Shown here: positions 19,517 through 26,002 of the stretch, in pieces
Layout of the letters: each line of letters starts with the position of its first letter
How positions within the stretch are numbered: position 1 is the first letter of the stretch
From: Acidobacteriota bacterium
Lineage (GTDB): Bacteria > Acidobacteriota > Vicinamibacteria > Fen-336
Assembly: GCA_016199625.1 (NCBI GenBank)
Contig: JACQGI010000007.1
Span: forward strand, 1 to 43,129
Direction: 5' to 3'
Length of the DNA stretch: 43,129 nt
Translations under genes and position numbers: made by a program
The notes under the pieces: model-generated
Told to the model about the DNA's origin: nothing
Database searches by the model: none
The model's input: only the letters and a program-made list of their open reading frames with translations

Positions 19517-19567
19517 CCCGCAGGCCGGCGGCGTAGAATGGGACGGGGAACCCCGGAGGGACCTGCG

Positions 19568-20242
19568 GTGTCCAAGCCGTCGAGGGTCGGCGCGGAGGTC
19601 GTGATGGCCTCGGGGGAAGTGGCGCTGCGGTCGACGGAGACGTTGGCGGCGGGCCCTTCCGCCGAGAGCGGCCTTCTGGAGCAGTGCCGCCGGGGCGACG
19701 CGCAGGCCTTCGCCCGGCTCGTGGCGATCCACGAGGCCATGGTCTACAACCTGGCCGTGCGGATCCTCGGGGACACCGAGGAGGCGAGGGACCTCGCGCA
19801 GGACGTCTTCCTGCAGGTCTACCGGACCCTCGGACGCTTCGAGGGCCGGAGCACCCTCAAGACCTGGATCTACCGCATCGTGGTGAACCAGTGCCGCAAC
19901 CGACAGCGCTGGTGGCGGCGGCGGCGACGCGACCGATCGTGCCCCATCGAGGACCTGTCGCCTGCCGACGAGGCGCGGGTCCAGTCGGGGGCCGAGCCGG
20001 ACGGACCCTACGAGGCCGTGGAGCGGCGCGAGCGGACGCGACGGGTGCAGGAGGCGCTCCTGGGCCTGAGCTTCGACCACCGCGCGATCCTGCTCCTGCG
20101 GGAGGTGGAATGCCTGTCGTGCGAGGACATCGGCGAGGCGCTGGGGGTCCCGGAGGGCACGGTCAAGAGCCGGCTGGCCCGGGCCCGGGAGGCCCTGCGG
20201 CAACGTCTCGCGCCACTCCTCGACGGGGAGGGTCGCACATGA
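19568..20242 (+). CDS. ECF-family RNA polymerase sigma factor
   Basis: A 224-residue group 4 sigma factor. After a nonconserved 35-residue N-terminus come region 2 (about 40-105; EEARDLAQDVFLQVYRTLGRF and STLKTWIYRIVVNQCRN) and region 4 (about 155-215; SFDHRAILLLREVECLSCEDIG, GVPEGTVKSRLARAREALR). The linker has a strongly basic WWRRRRRDR stretch. I chose the GTG at 19568 because GGAGGG is 7 bases upstream; the earlier ATG at 19538 overlaps a possible -10 (TAGAAT, 19534-19539). Its stop overlaps the next gene by ATGA. It should be held inactive by the membrane anti-sigma factor encoded next. Confidence 0.93.
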   Translation: MSKPSRVGAEVVMASGEVALRSTETLAAGPSAESGLLEQCRRGDAQAFARLVAIHEAMVYNLAVRILGDTEEARDLAQDVFLQVYRTLGRFEGRSTLKTWIYRIVVNQCRNRQRWWRRRRRDRSCPIEDLSPADEARVQSGAEPDGPYEAVERRERTRRVQEALLGLSFDHRAILLLREVECLSCEDIGEALGVPEGTVKSRLARAREALRQRLAPLLDGEGRT

Positions 20243-20961
20243 GCTGCCGCCGCGTCGTTCGCCGGCTGTCGGCGTACCTGGACGGCGACCTCCCCGCCGT
20301 CGAGGCGCGCGCGGTCGCGGCTCACCTCGGTGGCTGCCCGGAGTGCTCCGCCCGCTGGCGCTCCCTGCAGGGCGCGGTGGCGAAGCTGGGTGCGCTGCCG
20401 CGGCTGACGCCGTCGGAGGCGGTGGTCGCGCGCGTGATGGACCGGCTGGAGGTGGAGAGCCGGGGCCCGGGTCTGGCCCTGCTCTTCCGGCCCTTCTGGG
20501 CGGCGCGGCCGCTCATCCTCCCGAGCCTCGTCCCGGCCGCGCTCGTCCTCGTCTCCGTGCTGGCGGGCATCGTGGCGCTCCAGCAGGATGGCCAGCGTCC
20601 GGCCACCGTTGCGCAGCGCGGCGAGCAGTGGGACCGGCGGCTGCCCCCCTCGGGCACCGAAGGCAACCCCCTCTTCCCGTCGGCGGGCGTGAGCGTGCCG
20701 CGGATCCGCTCGCGTGGCGTCCTGCCCGACGATGCCCTGGCGGCGATGGGGGAGGACTCGCTGTTCATCGAGACCGTGGTGGCGCGGGACGGGAGCGTCT
20801 CGACGATCACGCTCCTCGACGGAGACTCCGAGCGCGCCCGCCCGCTCCTCGACGCGCTGCGGAGCGATCGCTTCGAGCCCCCGCGCTATCGCGGCCGGCC
20901 CGTGGCCGTGAGCATCTACCGGCTCATCAGCCGCATGGAGGTCCGGGCGCCGCTGACCTAG
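20239..20961 (+). CDS. Zinc-finger anti-sigma factor with a periplasmic TonB-C-like domain
   Basis: A 240-residue membrane protein that overlaps the ECF gene by ATGA. Residues 1-45 carry the zinc-binding anti-sigma pattern: Cys3, His29, Cys33 and Cys36 (HLGGCPEC). One transmembrane helix spans about 91-114. The periplasmic part ends in a compact domain (about 172-240) with DGSVSTITLLDGDSERARPL and RFEPPRYRGRPVAV, which resembles the C-terminal domain of TonB (G-x-V, alpha-helix with LLDALRS, then F-x-P and G-x-P-V strands). That likeness is by eye. It suggests sensing of an envelope signal. The stop lies 31 bp before the convergent glycosyltransferase gene. Confidence 0.85.
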   Translation: MSCRRVVRRLSAYLDGDLPAVEARAVAAHLGGCPECSARWRSLQGAVAKLGALPRLTPSEAVVARVMDRLEVESRGPGLALLFRPFWAARPLILPSLVPAALVLVSVLAGIVALQQDGQRPATVAQRGEQWDRRLPPSGTEGNPLFPSAGVSVPRIRSRGVLPDDALAAMGEDSLFIETVVARDGSVSTITLLDGDSERARPLLDALRSDRFEPPRYRGRPVAVSIYRLISRMEVRAPLT

Positions 20962-21905: not shown

Positions 21906-24110
21906 TCACGGCAGCTCGACGCGCGCGGTCGAGACGTTGCCCAGCTGATCCGTGGCCCGCACGACGAGGATCCGCGGGCCCGTTCCGTCCCCGGGGACGA
22001 TCTCGTAGGTCTCCTCGAGAGCGTCGTTGATGCCGTCCAGGGGATGGACCTCCTGCCAACGCCCGCCGTCCACGGAGAACTCGACCCTCCGGATCGTGCT
22101 GCTGTCGTCTCGGGCCACGGCGCGCACGCGCGCCGGCTTCTTCGCGGCGAGCAGGGCGGTCACCGTGGGGGGTGTGTTGTCCACGTCGAACGGCAGGCTC
22201 TCCTTCTCCCCGGCGAGGGCCAGGCTTTCCGGGTTTCCGGGAGAGTCCCGCGCCGTGACCTTGACGACGTAGCGTCCGTTGGGCACGGTCGAGGTGTCCC
22301 ACGCCAGCACCGCGTCCGCCAGTCCCTTCCGCAGGGGCCGGAACCGCGGGTCCTGGACGGTGCGGTAGGAGACGTCGTAGACGAGGGTGTCGGCGTTGGG
22401 GTCCTCGGCCTTCCACGAGAAGGTCTGGATGCCCTTCTGGTACAGGCGCCGGCTGTAGGCCGTCGCCGGTGGCAGACCCGGCGGCCGCTGGGCCGCGGCA
22501 CCGGGGCGCGGCTCCGGGCTCTCGCCGGGCTCGAGGCCCAGGATCTCGATCTCGCCGGTGAGGGAGAGGGGCTTCTGGAACACTTCGCCCGGGGGATGAA
22601 CCGTGACCGTGGTGACCTGCGGCCGCAGGTTGCGCTGGAGATAGGCCACCGCCGCGGCGTCCAGGACGGGAGACGTGCCGGCCTTCCCGACGAGGGTCGC
22701 CCGCAGCTGGAGGAAGCGAGCCCGCTCGCTGGTGACGGGGTCTCCGTCCTTCTGTGCGTACGCGGCGGACCAGCCCGACCACGTGGAGTCCGGGGTTCCG
22801 GTGTTCCCGCTGCGGGTCTGGACCTGAACCTCGGTCCCTTCGGAGACGGCCGCCTCCCACCGCAGGCGTCCCCATGTGGACACGGTCTCGGTGTCCTTCA
22901 CCTTGGAAACGAAGGTGCCACGCTCACCCGCCCCCGATCCGAGGAGGTGGAGCTTGCCGGGGTTCGAAGTGGCGAGAGCCAGGTCCTCTCCCGCCTGGAG
23001 GGCCGTGACCTGCTCGGCGGGGAAGGAGGCGACCATGGTCCAGGTGCGGTCGTTCCGCAGGCGATAGAGCTTCCCCTTGTCGCCGGTGCCGACGTACGCG
23101 CCGTCCTCCGCCGCTGCGAGGCTGTGGGGCATGTCCTCCGCGGAGGACCAGAGCGTGTCGATCTCACCCGTGGGCAGGATGCGGATCACGGCGCCCTTCA
23201 TGGCCCCCGGACGCGGCGCTTCCGCGACTCGCGGCGCCGGAGCGGGAACGGGTCCCCCGGGCGGTGAGACGACGAAGGCCTCGGTGACGGTGACCTCGCC
23301 GCCCATGGCGATCGGGGGGACGGGAACCATCGGCGCGGGGGCGCGCGAGGGCTCCTGCTTCTCCTTGCCGTCCACCAGTGCCGCGAAGAGGCTGCCCTCG
23401 CGGCCGACCGCCAGGGCCTTGACCTCGCGGAAGGGTGCGTCGTGGAGGACGAAGACCTTCCCCGCGGCGTCGATCCGATAGACGATGCCGTCTGGCGAGC
23501 TGCCGGCGTAGACGTTCCCTTTGCCGTCCACGGCGAGGGAGACGACGTGCGCTTCGCTGGAGGCGAGCAGGATCTCTCCCTTGCCCTTCGCGTCCACGCG
23601 GTGGACCTTGCCCTCGAGGCCGGTGGCCACGAGGAGCCGGTCCTCGCCGTCGAAGGCTAGGGCCCAGACGTACTTGTCGGCCGGGTCGTAGAACGTCTCC
23701 GCCTTGCCCTCCTCGTCCACGACGTACACGCGCCCGTCGGGTGCGGTGCCCACGTAGACGCGTCCGTCCCGCCCCACGGCGAGGGCGTGGACCTCGAGCT
23801 CCGTGGCATCGTAGAAGACCGTGGCCTCCCCGTCGGCGATGCGGAAGACCCTGCCCTCGTTCCCCGTTCCCGCGTACACGGCCCCCTTGCCGTCCCGCAC
23901 CACGCACCAGACCTGCGGCGACTCGACGTCGTGGAGGAGCCGCATGGCCGGCGCGAGGCGCACACGGCCCTCCGAGTCCACCGAGAGGCCCTCGGTATCG
24001 CCCTCGAGGAACTCCCGCGCCCCCTCGATCCGCCAGAACTGCGGCTGGGACGCCTGTGACGGGACGGCCGCGGCGAGCAGCACGGCCGCGAGGACGGGTC
24101 GCAGGAGCAT
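21906..24110 (-). CDS. Secreted beta-propeller protein with C-terminal Ig-like region
   Basis: A 734-residue exported protein with a signal peptide (MLLRPVLAAVLLAAAVPSQAS). The N-terminal half is a propeller of about 40-residue blades with recurring motifs VYAGTGNEGRVFRI, VYVGTAPDGRVYVV, VYAGSSPDGIVYRI and AYVGTGDKGKLYRL, similar to NHL/WD40-like or ligand-sensing propellers. A Pro-rich linker (about 265-315) interrupts it. The C-terminal half has fibronectin/Ig-like strands (GTSPVLDAAAVAYLQRN, PPTVTALLAAK, YEIVPGDGTGPRILVVRATD). No catalytic residues are evident, so it is probably a binding protein. I chose the inner ATG at 24110, which has GGAGG 4 bases upstream and gives the signal peptide. 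It lies 35 bp after the S55-like gene. Confidence 0.8.
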   Translation of the reverse strand: MLLRPVLAAVLLAAAVPSQASQPQFWRIEGAREFLEGDTEGLSVDSEGRVRLAPAMRLLHDVESPQVWCVVRDGKGAVYAGTGNEGRVFRIADGEATVFYDATELEVHALAVGRDGRVYVGTAPDGRVYVVDEEGKAETFYDPADKYVWALAFDGEDRLLVATGLEGKVHRVDAKGKGEILLASSEAHVVSLAVDGKGNVYAGSSPDGIVYRIDAAGKVFVLHDAPFREVKALAVGREGSLFAALVDGKEKQEPSRAPAPMVPVPPIAMGGEVTVTEAFVVSPPGGPVPAPAPRVAEAPRPGAMKGAVIRILPTGEIDTLWSSAEDMPHSLAAAEDGAYVGTGDKGKLYRLRNDRTWTMVASFPAEQVTALQAGEDLALATSNPGKLHLLGSGAGERGTFVSKVKDTETVSTWGRLRWEAAVSEGTEVQVQTRSGNTGTPDSTWSGWSAAYAQKDGDPVTSERARFLQLRATLVGKAGTSPVLDAAAVAYLQRNLRPQVTTVTVHPPGEVFQKPLSLTGEIEILGLEPGESPEPRPGAAAQRPPGLPPATAYSRRLYQKGIQTFSWKAEDPNADTLVYDVSYRTVQDPRFRPLRKGLADAVLAWDTSTVPNGRYVVKVTARDSPGNPESLALAGEKESLPFDVDNTPPTVTALLAAKKPARVRAVARDDSSTIRRVEFSVDGGRWQEVHPLDGINDALEETYEIVPGDGTGPRILVVRATDQLGNVSTARVELP

Positions 24111-24145
24111 GGAGCCTCCGAAGGGGGATGGTGCCGGTCTCGACC

Positions 24146-26002
24146 TCACCGCTCGACGGTGAGGGAGAGGGTACGCGATCCGCTGACGGCGTAGTCGGTG
24201 GGAAGGTCGAAGTCCCAGACCGACGCGGTGCGGATGGGAATGATGCTCCCGCCCTGGTCCGGGGAGCCCAGGACCGACAGCACCGAGGGCGGCAGGGACT
24301 GCATGTACTCACCCGCCACGATGGCGCCCTCGTCGCTGCGGAGCAGCCGGGCGTACACGTGGCTGTTGCGGCGCAGCCCGTTGATCGCGCGGATCAGCTG
24401 GTCCAGGTCGCGGGGGACGAAGGGCTGCCGCATCTCCCGCTGCTCGAGGGCCGTCAGGGCGCTCGCGTCGGCCACCAGGAGGGTGTAGATCCCCGGCGAC
24501 GCGGTCGCGGGAATCGTCACGGGGATCGTCTCGGTCCGGGCCTCGCCGCGGTAGGTGCGCAGCATCATCTTCAGGGTGACGAGGGACCCGGGGCGGACGG
24601 GCCCGGCACGCTCGAGCCAGGCGCGCTCGAGGGTCGCGCTCTGGACCGTCTCGTGGGAGGAGACGTCCACTTCCACCTGCTCCACCGTGACCCGCTCGAA
24701 GTCGTTGGACATGAGGTACGCCAGGGGGGCCGCGACGAGAGCCGATGCCTGGAGCGCCGGCTGGTCGTGGGCGAAGAGGTCCTCCACGCGGACCTCGCGC
24801 CGCTTGTCCTCGCGAGCGGGGCCCGCGAGGCTCACCTTCGCATCCACCTGGATCGTCGACGTCCCGAAGGCGCGCTCGTTGGCCTGGAGCACGGAGAGGA
24901 GGGACACGAAGGTGAGGACGGGGCTGAAGAGTTCGTCCTCGACGATCCGGAAGCCGTACTGTCGCTCCTGCCCACGGCTCGTGGTGAGCTTCACCGAGAC
25001 CGGAATCATCCGCGGCGTGCGACCGAGACGCCCGGCGATGGCCGTGGTGCGATCCTGGTCCATGGTCCCCACCGCCTCCAGGGCCGTGCTGATCTTCCAG
25101 GACTGGTACAGGCTCGGAAAGACCGAGAAGACGTAGGCCTTCTTCATCGGGAACTGTGTGGGGCCCAGGTTGTAGAACGGATGGCCGAAGGCGTAGACGC
25201 GGTCCTTGTCGATGTGGGTGATGGTGCCCGTGACCGACAGGTCCAGATCCCCCTCGATGAGGGAGACGCCGACGGCGCCTCCGGGCTGCAGGTCGGGCAG
25301 GGTCTCCGGGAAGGGGCCGCCGCGCGCCGTCCCCAGGACGGGCGCGAAGCCCACGCTCCCGAACAGCCCCCGGGCCCATTCGAAGGTCGAGGGGTCGAAG
25401 CCGGAGAAGACGAGCGGCAGGGTGAGTGGCGCCAACGTCGCTCCGGTCGGAGCCCCGCGGAGCACGTCGGCCGCGATCGACGGCAGCGGCCGACGGAGCG
25501 CGGCCGTCAGGGCCTCCCGGTCGAGGGGCCGTGCGGGTCCGCCGGGACCCAGGGGGGCCGGGAAGCGCGACGAAGCCGCCCGCGGGGCGTCGGTGTTGGT
25601 AGCCTCGATCATCTCGCCGATGGGCGTGATGCCCGCGATCGTCTCCTTGGAGAACGGGAAGCCGTAGGCGACGGCCCCCACCAGCTTGCCCTCGATGAAC
25701 ACGGGGCTCCCGCTCATTCCGGCGATGACGCCGGTCTCCTTGAGGGGTCCTCCCTCCAGACGGGCGATGATCATGCTCTGCTTGGGTCCGACCGCGTTCT
25801 CCAGCACCCCGAGGACAGAGACCTGGAACTCGTCGATGCGCGTCCCCTCGAAGACGGTGCGGCCCACGCCGGTCATGCCCGGGCGGATCTGGTCCAGGGG
25901 CAGGATGTCGGCGACGGTCTGCGCTGTCGCGAGGGAGGGGAGCAGGAGGGCGGCGACGACGGCGGCGGCCCGCGGACGGCTCATCGGCTTCTGAGGCTCC
26001 AC
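24146..26002 (-). CDS. Secreted SpoIVB-S55-like peptidase with catalytic halves in reversed order
   Basis: A 618-residue exported protein with a signal peptide (ends SLATAQ, about residue 28). Residues 80-133 match the serine half of SpoIVB peptidase S55: GMSGSPVFIEGKLVGAVAYG with Ser97 as likely nucleophile. The histidine-half motif RVYAFGHPFYNLG (His274) follows later, at about 268-280, preceded by PGGAVGVSLIEGDLDLSVTGT. In SpoIVB the His comes before the Ser, so this looks circularly permuted. The rest (about 300-618) is beta-rich and unrecognised. The start is GTG at 26002 (GAAGG 4 bases upstream); an ATG at 25984 is a second option. A good promoter ends 9 bases before the GTG. Whether it is proteolytic is unknown. 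Confidence 0.75.
   Translation of the reverse strand: MEPQKPMSRPRAAAVVAALLLPSLATAQTVADILPLDQIRPGMTGVGRTVFEGTRIDEFQVSVLGVLENAVGPKQSMIIARLEGGPLKETGVIAGMSGSPVFIEGKLVGAVAYGFPFSKETIAGITPIGEMIEATNTDAPRAASSRFPAPLGPGGPARPLDREALTAALRRPLPSIAADVLRGAPTGATLAPLTLPLVFSGFDPSTFEWARGLFGSVGFAPVLGTARGGPFPETLPDLQPGGAVGVSLIEGDLDLSVTGTITHIDKDRVYAFGHPFYNLGPTQFPMKKAYVFSVFPSLYQSWKISTALEAVGTMDQDRTTAIAGRLGRTPRMIPVSVKLTTSRGQERQYGFRIVEDELFSPVLTFVSLLSVLQANERAFGTSTIQVDAKVSLAGPAREDKRREVRVEDLFAHDQPALQASALVAAPLAYLMSNDFERVTVEQVEVDVSSHETVQSATLERAWLERAGPVRPGSLVTLKMMLRTYRGEARTETIPVTIPATASPGIYTLLVADASALTALEQREMRQPFVPRDLDQLIRAINGLRRNSHVYARLLRSDEGAIVAGEYMQSLPPSVLSVLGSPDQGGSIIPIRTASVWDFDLPTDYAVSGSRTLSLTVER

Follow-up and report, generated by a model that had tools for sequence, protein, structure and literature searches.

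SpoIVB and Other Trypsin-like Peptidases

SpoIVB (MEROPS S55/PF05580; B. subtilis, 9lnf) is the only convincing sequence relative in the PDB of the protein described here. Its histidine half precedes its serine half, and an N-terminal PDZ domain stands before the barrels. Envelope proteases such as HtrA/DegP, MucD, Deg8, and Rv3671c, which are mostly periplasmic or extracytoplasmic, also consist of two six-stranded barrels with a Ser-His-Asp set; to our knowledge, the histidine barrel always comes first in these proteins, and PA-clan peptidases in general are ordered His-Asp-Ser along the chain. This order has been described for the S1 peptidases (PMC3434108). The 2025 crystal paper on SpoIVB reports that the protein cleaves itself, places Asp363 about 24 Å from His236, and proposes Thr393 as the third catalytic residue (PMC12502668). 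Circular permutation has been mentioned for papain-like cysteine peptidases (PMC10318531), which provide a precedent for a permuted catalytic order but differ in fold and chemistry. The open-access literature searched yielded no natural trypsin-like protease with reversed barrels and no permuted trypsin-like fold, even though this enzyme class has been heavily studied. S55 has already been annotated in Acidobacteria, where the order of the halves is unmentioned (PMC8841776).

The window analyzed here is the whole stretch of 43,129 nucleotides of contig JACQGI010000007.1 (assembly GCA_016199625.1). It comes from a genome that is 63% complete and whose phylum, judged from its relatives, is most likely Acidobacteriota. 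We consider it very likely that the window encodes a circularly permuted SpoIVB-type (S55) peptidase, which would reside in the periplasm and work with an adjacent propeller protein, probably as an envelope processing protease.

Gene and Protein Layout

The permuted S55 serine peptidase gene occupies 24146..26002 on the minus strand, as do all the protein features below, and encodes 618 amino acids from a GTG start at 26002; an ATG at 25984 could also serve. Residues 1–27 (25922..26002; ...PSLATA-QT) form a probable Sec signal peptide, judged by eye in a segment where AlphaFold2 confidence is low, and the protein looks exported. The serine barrel spans residues 42–128 (25619..25879; strands 44–53, 55–72, 75–83, 100–103, 106–114, and 122–127) and carries the GMSGSP motif at residues 95–100 (25703..25720) with the invariant putative nucleophile Ser97 (codon 25712–25714). 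A variable inter-barrel linker of residues 129–242 (25277..25618) contains a small alpha/beta part at 195–223 and a poorly modelled segment at 149–158. It is followed by the histidine barrel of residues 243–326 (25025..25276; strands 243–251, 254–265, 268–271, 280–295, 302–318, and 321–326), which holds the AFGHPF motif at residues 271–276 (25175..25192) with the invariant, presumably catalytic His274 (codon 25181–25183), and the invariant Asp317 (25052..25054), the proposed third member of the triad. The C-terminal region, residues 330–618 (24149..25015), is mixed alpha/beta, well modelled, and conserved across the family, and has no Pfam match. Neither this region nor the linker showed similarity to either barrel. 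The chain would accordingly be read as serine barrel, variable linker of about 110 residues, His/Asp barrel, and conserved C-terminal domain.

The earlier note on this DNA, made from the letters alone, had placed the serine motif before the histidine motif, and this order is confirmed: Ser97 of GMSGSP precedes His274 of AFGHPF by 177 residues within the 618-residue open reading frame. Residues 1–96 contain no histidine, so the normal order of histidine before serine is impossible, and no normal-order His-Asp-Ser set was found elsewhere in the window protein. The same note's description of a secreted protein, encoded first in its operon and followed by a large propeller protein, also agrees with the Sec-like N-terminus, with the lack of a same-strand gene immediately upstream, and with the gene directly downstream. 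The latter (21906..24149, minus strand) encodes an exported protein of beta-propeller and Ig-like parts; its GTG start at 24149 and the S55 stop share 4 bp, and an ATG at 24110 is a possible true start. On the plus strand, what appear by eye to be an ECF-type sigma factor (19538–20242) and then a probable zinc-finger anti-sigma protein (20239–20961) form a pair that converges on the peptidase, propeller, and glycosyltransferase genes.

Homology of the Two Halves to SpoIVB

The serine half is readily recognized. PF05580 (Peptidase_S55) matches residues 35–115 of the window protein with E = 5.7e-9 and 36.7 bits, against a curated cut-off of 25, and covers only positions 114–194 of the 210 in the profile. 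In profile-profile comparison this half matches the C-half of SpoIVB (Prob 99.4, E 6e-22). TIGR02860, the SpoIVB equivalog model, matches by its C-terminal end only, at 35.9 bits against a cut-off of 305.25.

An HMM of the phylum's histidine halves did not match the single B. subtilis SpoIVB chain significantly, scoring no better than a shuffled sequence, and profile-profile comparison with decoys was therefore adopted. Residues 232–420 matched the N-half of 34 SpoIVB proteins with a score of 32.7 (E 6.7e-5), above every one of 400 column-shuffled decoys (best 22.3, mean 12.8, s.d. 2.4), and cross-comparisons of the wrong halves gave decoy-level scores. When histidine-half fragments were compared with all of Pfam, PF05580 was matched in 18 of 77 members and the next family in two; these matches of the relatives fall at profile positions 12–85 and lie below the cut-off (best E 0.0024). 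The PF05580 segments therefore run along the chain as 114–194 and then 12–85, the latter seen from some relatives' histidine halves. Residues 236–345 modelled alone by AlphaFold2 give a six-stranded barrel (pLDDT 95.4). Among 350,542 PDB chains its first match is SpoIVB 9lnf, with a probability of 1.00 and a weak E-value of 0.089, such weak Foldseek values being usual for short domains; trypsin, thrombin, and V8 protease come next. It is highly improbable that AFGHPF belongs to an unrelated domain, with only the serine half SpoIVB-like and the GH motif there by chance, a reading that fits the shuffled-level single-sequence result and the second half's want of Pfam annotation, since the decoy comparison, the top Pfam family with its N-half positions, the first fold match, and the invariance of H274 and D317 all speak against it.

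The protein is therefore a circular permutation: both halves are homologous to the S55 domain and stand in swapped order in one chain. The resemblance to SpoIVB around both motifs that had been noticed by eye was right, although for the histidine half profiles on both sides were needed to see it, and the suggestion of a permuted fold is borne out by profile-profile, Pfam, and fold searches alike. No similarity to a second serine-half remnant, as expected from permutation by duplication, was found C-terminal of the histidine barrel. Databases annotate half of the permuted protein, which hides the permutation.

Compared with SpoIVB, the permuted protein has both barrels, the motifs GMSG[SA]P and GT.T...GH, and export in common, and likewise would work in the space between two membranes. 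The barrel order is opposite, and Asp317 stands where SpoIVB has Asn290. Unlike SpoIVB, the permuted protein lacks a PDZ domain (no PDZ match by Pfam in the window protein), has a C-terminal domain of nearly 300 residues, and is paired with a propeller; its gene is not a sporulation gene and occurs in lineages outside the spore-forming Bacillota. By Pfam or phmmer, no sequence-level relation to HtrA/DegP, MucD, Deg8, or Rv3671c was detected.

Fold of the Whole Protein

The full AlphaFold2 model (pLDDT 89.3, pTM 0.88) has two barrels of six strands, one per half. In the first barrel, Ser97 is on the connection from strand 3 to strand 4; in the second, His274 follows strand 3 and Asp317 is at the end of strand 5. 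This placement of strands and residues is the topology of the trypsin barrels, here with the barrels exchanged. A PDB search with the whole model was dominated by spurious low-probability matches to beta-rich proteins, with 9lnf outside the top 50, and the matches at probability 0.98–1.00 are the PA-clan proteases MucD, Rv3671c, and Deg8, whose alignments extend over about 110 columns, as many as a single barrel would fill. That the window protein has a permuted two-barrel fold is nearly certain.

The two barrels most likely come together in the trypsin manner, which would place the active site between them. Because the inter-barrel linker is long and variable, with part of it disordered in the model, the active site might instead be built between two chains, the serine barrel of one molecule lying on the histidine barrel of another in a domain-swapped dimer, in which case the barrel order of a single chain would be under less constraint; the pTM of 0.88 obtained for the monomer suggests a confident intra-chain arrangement, and we find the dimer quite unlikely.

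Catalytic Residues and Asn290 of SpoIVB

When 77 diverse sequences from many phyla are compared, just four residues that could take part in catalysis never vary, namely Ser97, Ser99, His274, and Asp317. His274 and Asp317 are 43 residues apart; the corresponding spacing in chymotrypsin, between His57 and Asp102, is 45. Ser97, His274, and Asp317 most likely form the catalytic triad, and their order along the chain departs from the His, Asp, Ser of the PA clan. Packed in a trypsin-like manner, the barrels would allow His274 and Asp317 to activate Ser97.

Ser97 aligns with S378, the catalytic serine of SpoIVB, and His274 with H236, its catalytic histidine. In a MAFFT alignment, Asp317 falls on SpoIVB Asn290 through the shared pattern G-x-[IM]-x-x-[DN]-x4-[IV]-x-G, a stretch that hhalign, in a shorter local alignment, registers differently. 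All 34 SpoIVB proteins compared have Asn290, and Thr393 is invariant in SpoIVB as well. Asn290 could hence be hypothesized to be the third catalytic residue of SpoIVB, as an alternative to Thr393; it is not considered as such in the passages of the crystal paper that were consulted (PMC12502668). The invariant Asn290/Asp317 column offers a testable answer to the question of the third residue of SpoIVB.

Distribution and Conservation of the Order

The serine-first order, whose conservation among homologues the earlier note had proposed to check, was found in every homologue read, that is, in all 128 gene copies (30 from the window's phylum including the window, 78 from named loci, and 20 from Bacillota), a few of these loci being the same gene reached twice. 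A collinear PF05580 match over the whole domain, histidine half first, occurs in none of them, the order being swapped in 128 of 128. The protein is homologous to S55 and would work like a PA-clan protease, but the collinear order by which both are defined is broken, so that permuted variant of S55 is the most fitting name.

S55 matches were present in 107 of the 119 genomes sampled from the window's phylum, nearly always one per genome and with the serine half only, in open reading frames mostly of about 600 amino acids. All 30 loci read there have GMSGSP first and the FGH motif 130–190 residues later; over the 98 loci measured, the spacing from GMSGSP to GH is 135–236 residues. An apparent loss of the histidine in some Acidobacteriia proved to be an artefact of a narrow pattern, AFGHR or ACGHP being present instead. 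A scan of the genomes of 84,980 species yielded 80 named loci, of which 78 were readable. Among the phyla represented by the 80 loci are Acidobacteriota, Aminicenantes, Gemmatimonadota, Planctomycetota, Latescibacterota, Zixibacteria, Poribacteria, KSB1, WOR-3, Eisenbacteria, Myxococcota, Verrucomicrobiota, and Bacillota. Of three more phyla that were sampled, one gave S55 matches in 48 of 60 genomes, another in 18 of 58, and the last in 14 of 59, again with the serine half only. The permuted form is carried by the majority of the genomes sampled from two phyla and is present in parts of several more, usually as a single copy.

Two observations concern individual genomes. In a Gemmatimonadota-like phylum, several genomes (G249, G259, G273, G291, and others) have two to four S55 matches each, and the extra matches, at profile positions of about 156–205 only and in open reading frames of 650–1100 amino acids, are possibly diverged paralogues. 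One locus labelled Acidimicrobiia of Actinomycetota (L031) encodes a peptidase 48% identical to that of the window and groups with an Acidobacteria MAG; the genome is probably mislabelled.

The Propeller Protein and the Probable Function

In 64 of the 78 named loci, across phyla, the next gene downstream encodes a beta-propeller and Ig-like protein, often with start and stop overlapping. In the window's phylum, the propeller was found in all 107 genomes with S55, directly downstream and on the same strand in 91 of them; some of the other 16, in which it lies elsewhere, may reflect contig breaks. In one Hebobacteria locus (L104:97-4047), the permuted peptidase and the propeller are fused in one continuous open reading frame of 1317 amino acids, and such a fusion speaks more for a partner than for a substrate meant to be degraded. 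The earlier note had left partner and substrate side by side; with the adjacency conserved across phyla and one gene fusion, the evidence leans toward a partner. The propeller is not universal, because it is absent within the 8–15 kb of sequence around the permuted genes of Bacillota. Outside Bacillota, no conserved neighbours besides the propeller were found, envelope genes included, and the common neighbour matches are riboflavin genes of one lineage.

As we picture it, the peptidase would be exported to the periplasm and act there with the product of the adjacent propeller gene, cutting an envelope protein that the propeller might recruit or whose cleavage it might regulate. Its probable role would be that of a site-specific or processing protease in the maintenance of the outer membrane or envelope. 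The wide spread in two-membrane bacteria and the usual pairing with a propeller point to a role, so far unstudied, in the assembly or upkeep of the envelope. It is also conceivable, though unlikely, that the permuted fold has been kept while peptidase work has been lost, the protein serving as an envelope chaperone, scaffold, or binding partner, or cutting only itself. The self-cleavage reported for SpoIVB (PMC12502668) would suit the last of these, and the conserved propeller pairing is also compatible with a structural complex; a Ser, His, and Asp that never change throughout about ten phyla are unexpected in a dead enzyme. The conserved residues make peptidase activity of the permuted protein likely.

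Outer-membrane Link in Bacillota

Among 120 Bacillota genomes, the permuted gene occurs in 29, bamA (PF01103), a gene for outer-membrane assembly, in 30, and both in 28 (Fisher p = 7e-24, a value that overstates independence because the genomes are related). In 23 pairs, the permuted gene and bamA are 2.5–14 kb apart. There are three exceptions (G160, G202, and G230): two genomes have Omp85 without a permuted S55, and one has a partial permuted-type match without Omp85.

In Propionispora, the gene order is NAGPA (DUF2233), a lipoyl-like protein, permuted S55, MlaE, MlaF, and MlaD. Three Negativicutes loci (L105:6680-6991, L109:6611-6919, and L115:1390-1680) have a gene for a small exported lipoyl/biotin-like protein, separated by about 3 bp from the permuted peptidase gene that comes next; the latter is then followed by MlaEFD. 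Adjacency to MlaE was rejected as a general rule: it holds in three Bacillota genomes and is a trait of some lineages such as Negativicutes, since MlaE occurs only in seven of the 120.

Veillonella parvula provides a link to published work. Vpar_0521, a SpoIVB-domain protein, belongs to the outer-membrane proteome and is encoded close to the DUF2233 gene Vpar_0519 (PMC5491611), and the organism has an mlaEFD-tolC-tamB operon within a large outer-membrane gene cluster (PMC10665443; PMC5007114). Judged from its domain and neighbours, Vpar_0521 is probably an ortholog of the permuted S55: like the permuted family, it has the SpoIVB domain at the N-terminus, adjoins a DUF2233 (NAGPA) gene, and is conserved in diderm Firmicutes. 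As published, DUF1090 was assigned to its C-terminus, the permutation was unmentioned, and no function was given (PMC5491611). A single family would then tie together an uncharacterised gene of the diderm Firmicutes outer-membrane cluster, probably a protein of the Veillonella outer-membrane proteome, and a gene that belongs to the core of the window's phylum.

Which Order Is Older

The canonical SpoIVB order, with profile positions 2–210 in one piece, was seen in Bacillota only, and some Bacillota genomes encode both a permuted S55 and a canonical SpoIVB. In the tree, the permuted proteins from outside Bacillota form one side (support 100), except for one long-branch row, and the permuted proteins of Bacillota lie with SpoIVB on the other. 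The tree fails to root the SpoIVB split: the SpoIVB branch is long, and a second run does not pin down where it attaches.

The name permuted variant takes the order of SpoIVB as the reference; the polarity may be the reverse, with the serine-first order the older one in bacterial S55 and SpoIVB rearranged within Bacillota. We regard this as less than probable, yet as a possibility of some weight. In each of 187 genomes outside Bacillota with S55 matches, the serine half alone is matched, and the genes that were read are serine-first; diderm spore formers carry both genes; and one tree joins SpoIVB to the side that holds the permuted proteins of Bacillota. On the other hand, SpoIVB sits on a very long branch whose attachment the second tree run leaves unfixed, and the general His-Asp-Ser order of the PA clan (PMC3434108 for S1) favours histidine-first as the older arrangement.

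A fuller and more doubtful proposal can be built on the reversed polarity. The permuted protease would be a widespread, mostly single-copy envelope protein of many two-membrane bacteria. SpoIVB, whose signalling during sporulation takes place between the two membranes of the forespore, would have been derived from it in the diderm ancestor of Bacillota by reversal of the barrels, with Asn290 as its third residue. If this were true, a protease that maintains the outer membrane would have been taken over for sporulation, and a possible tie between the outer membrane and sporulation is thereby made testable. With regard to the canonical form, one Bacillota genome (G159:C4:1081-1711) has its SpoIVB split over two overlapping frames, by a frameshift or an assembly error.
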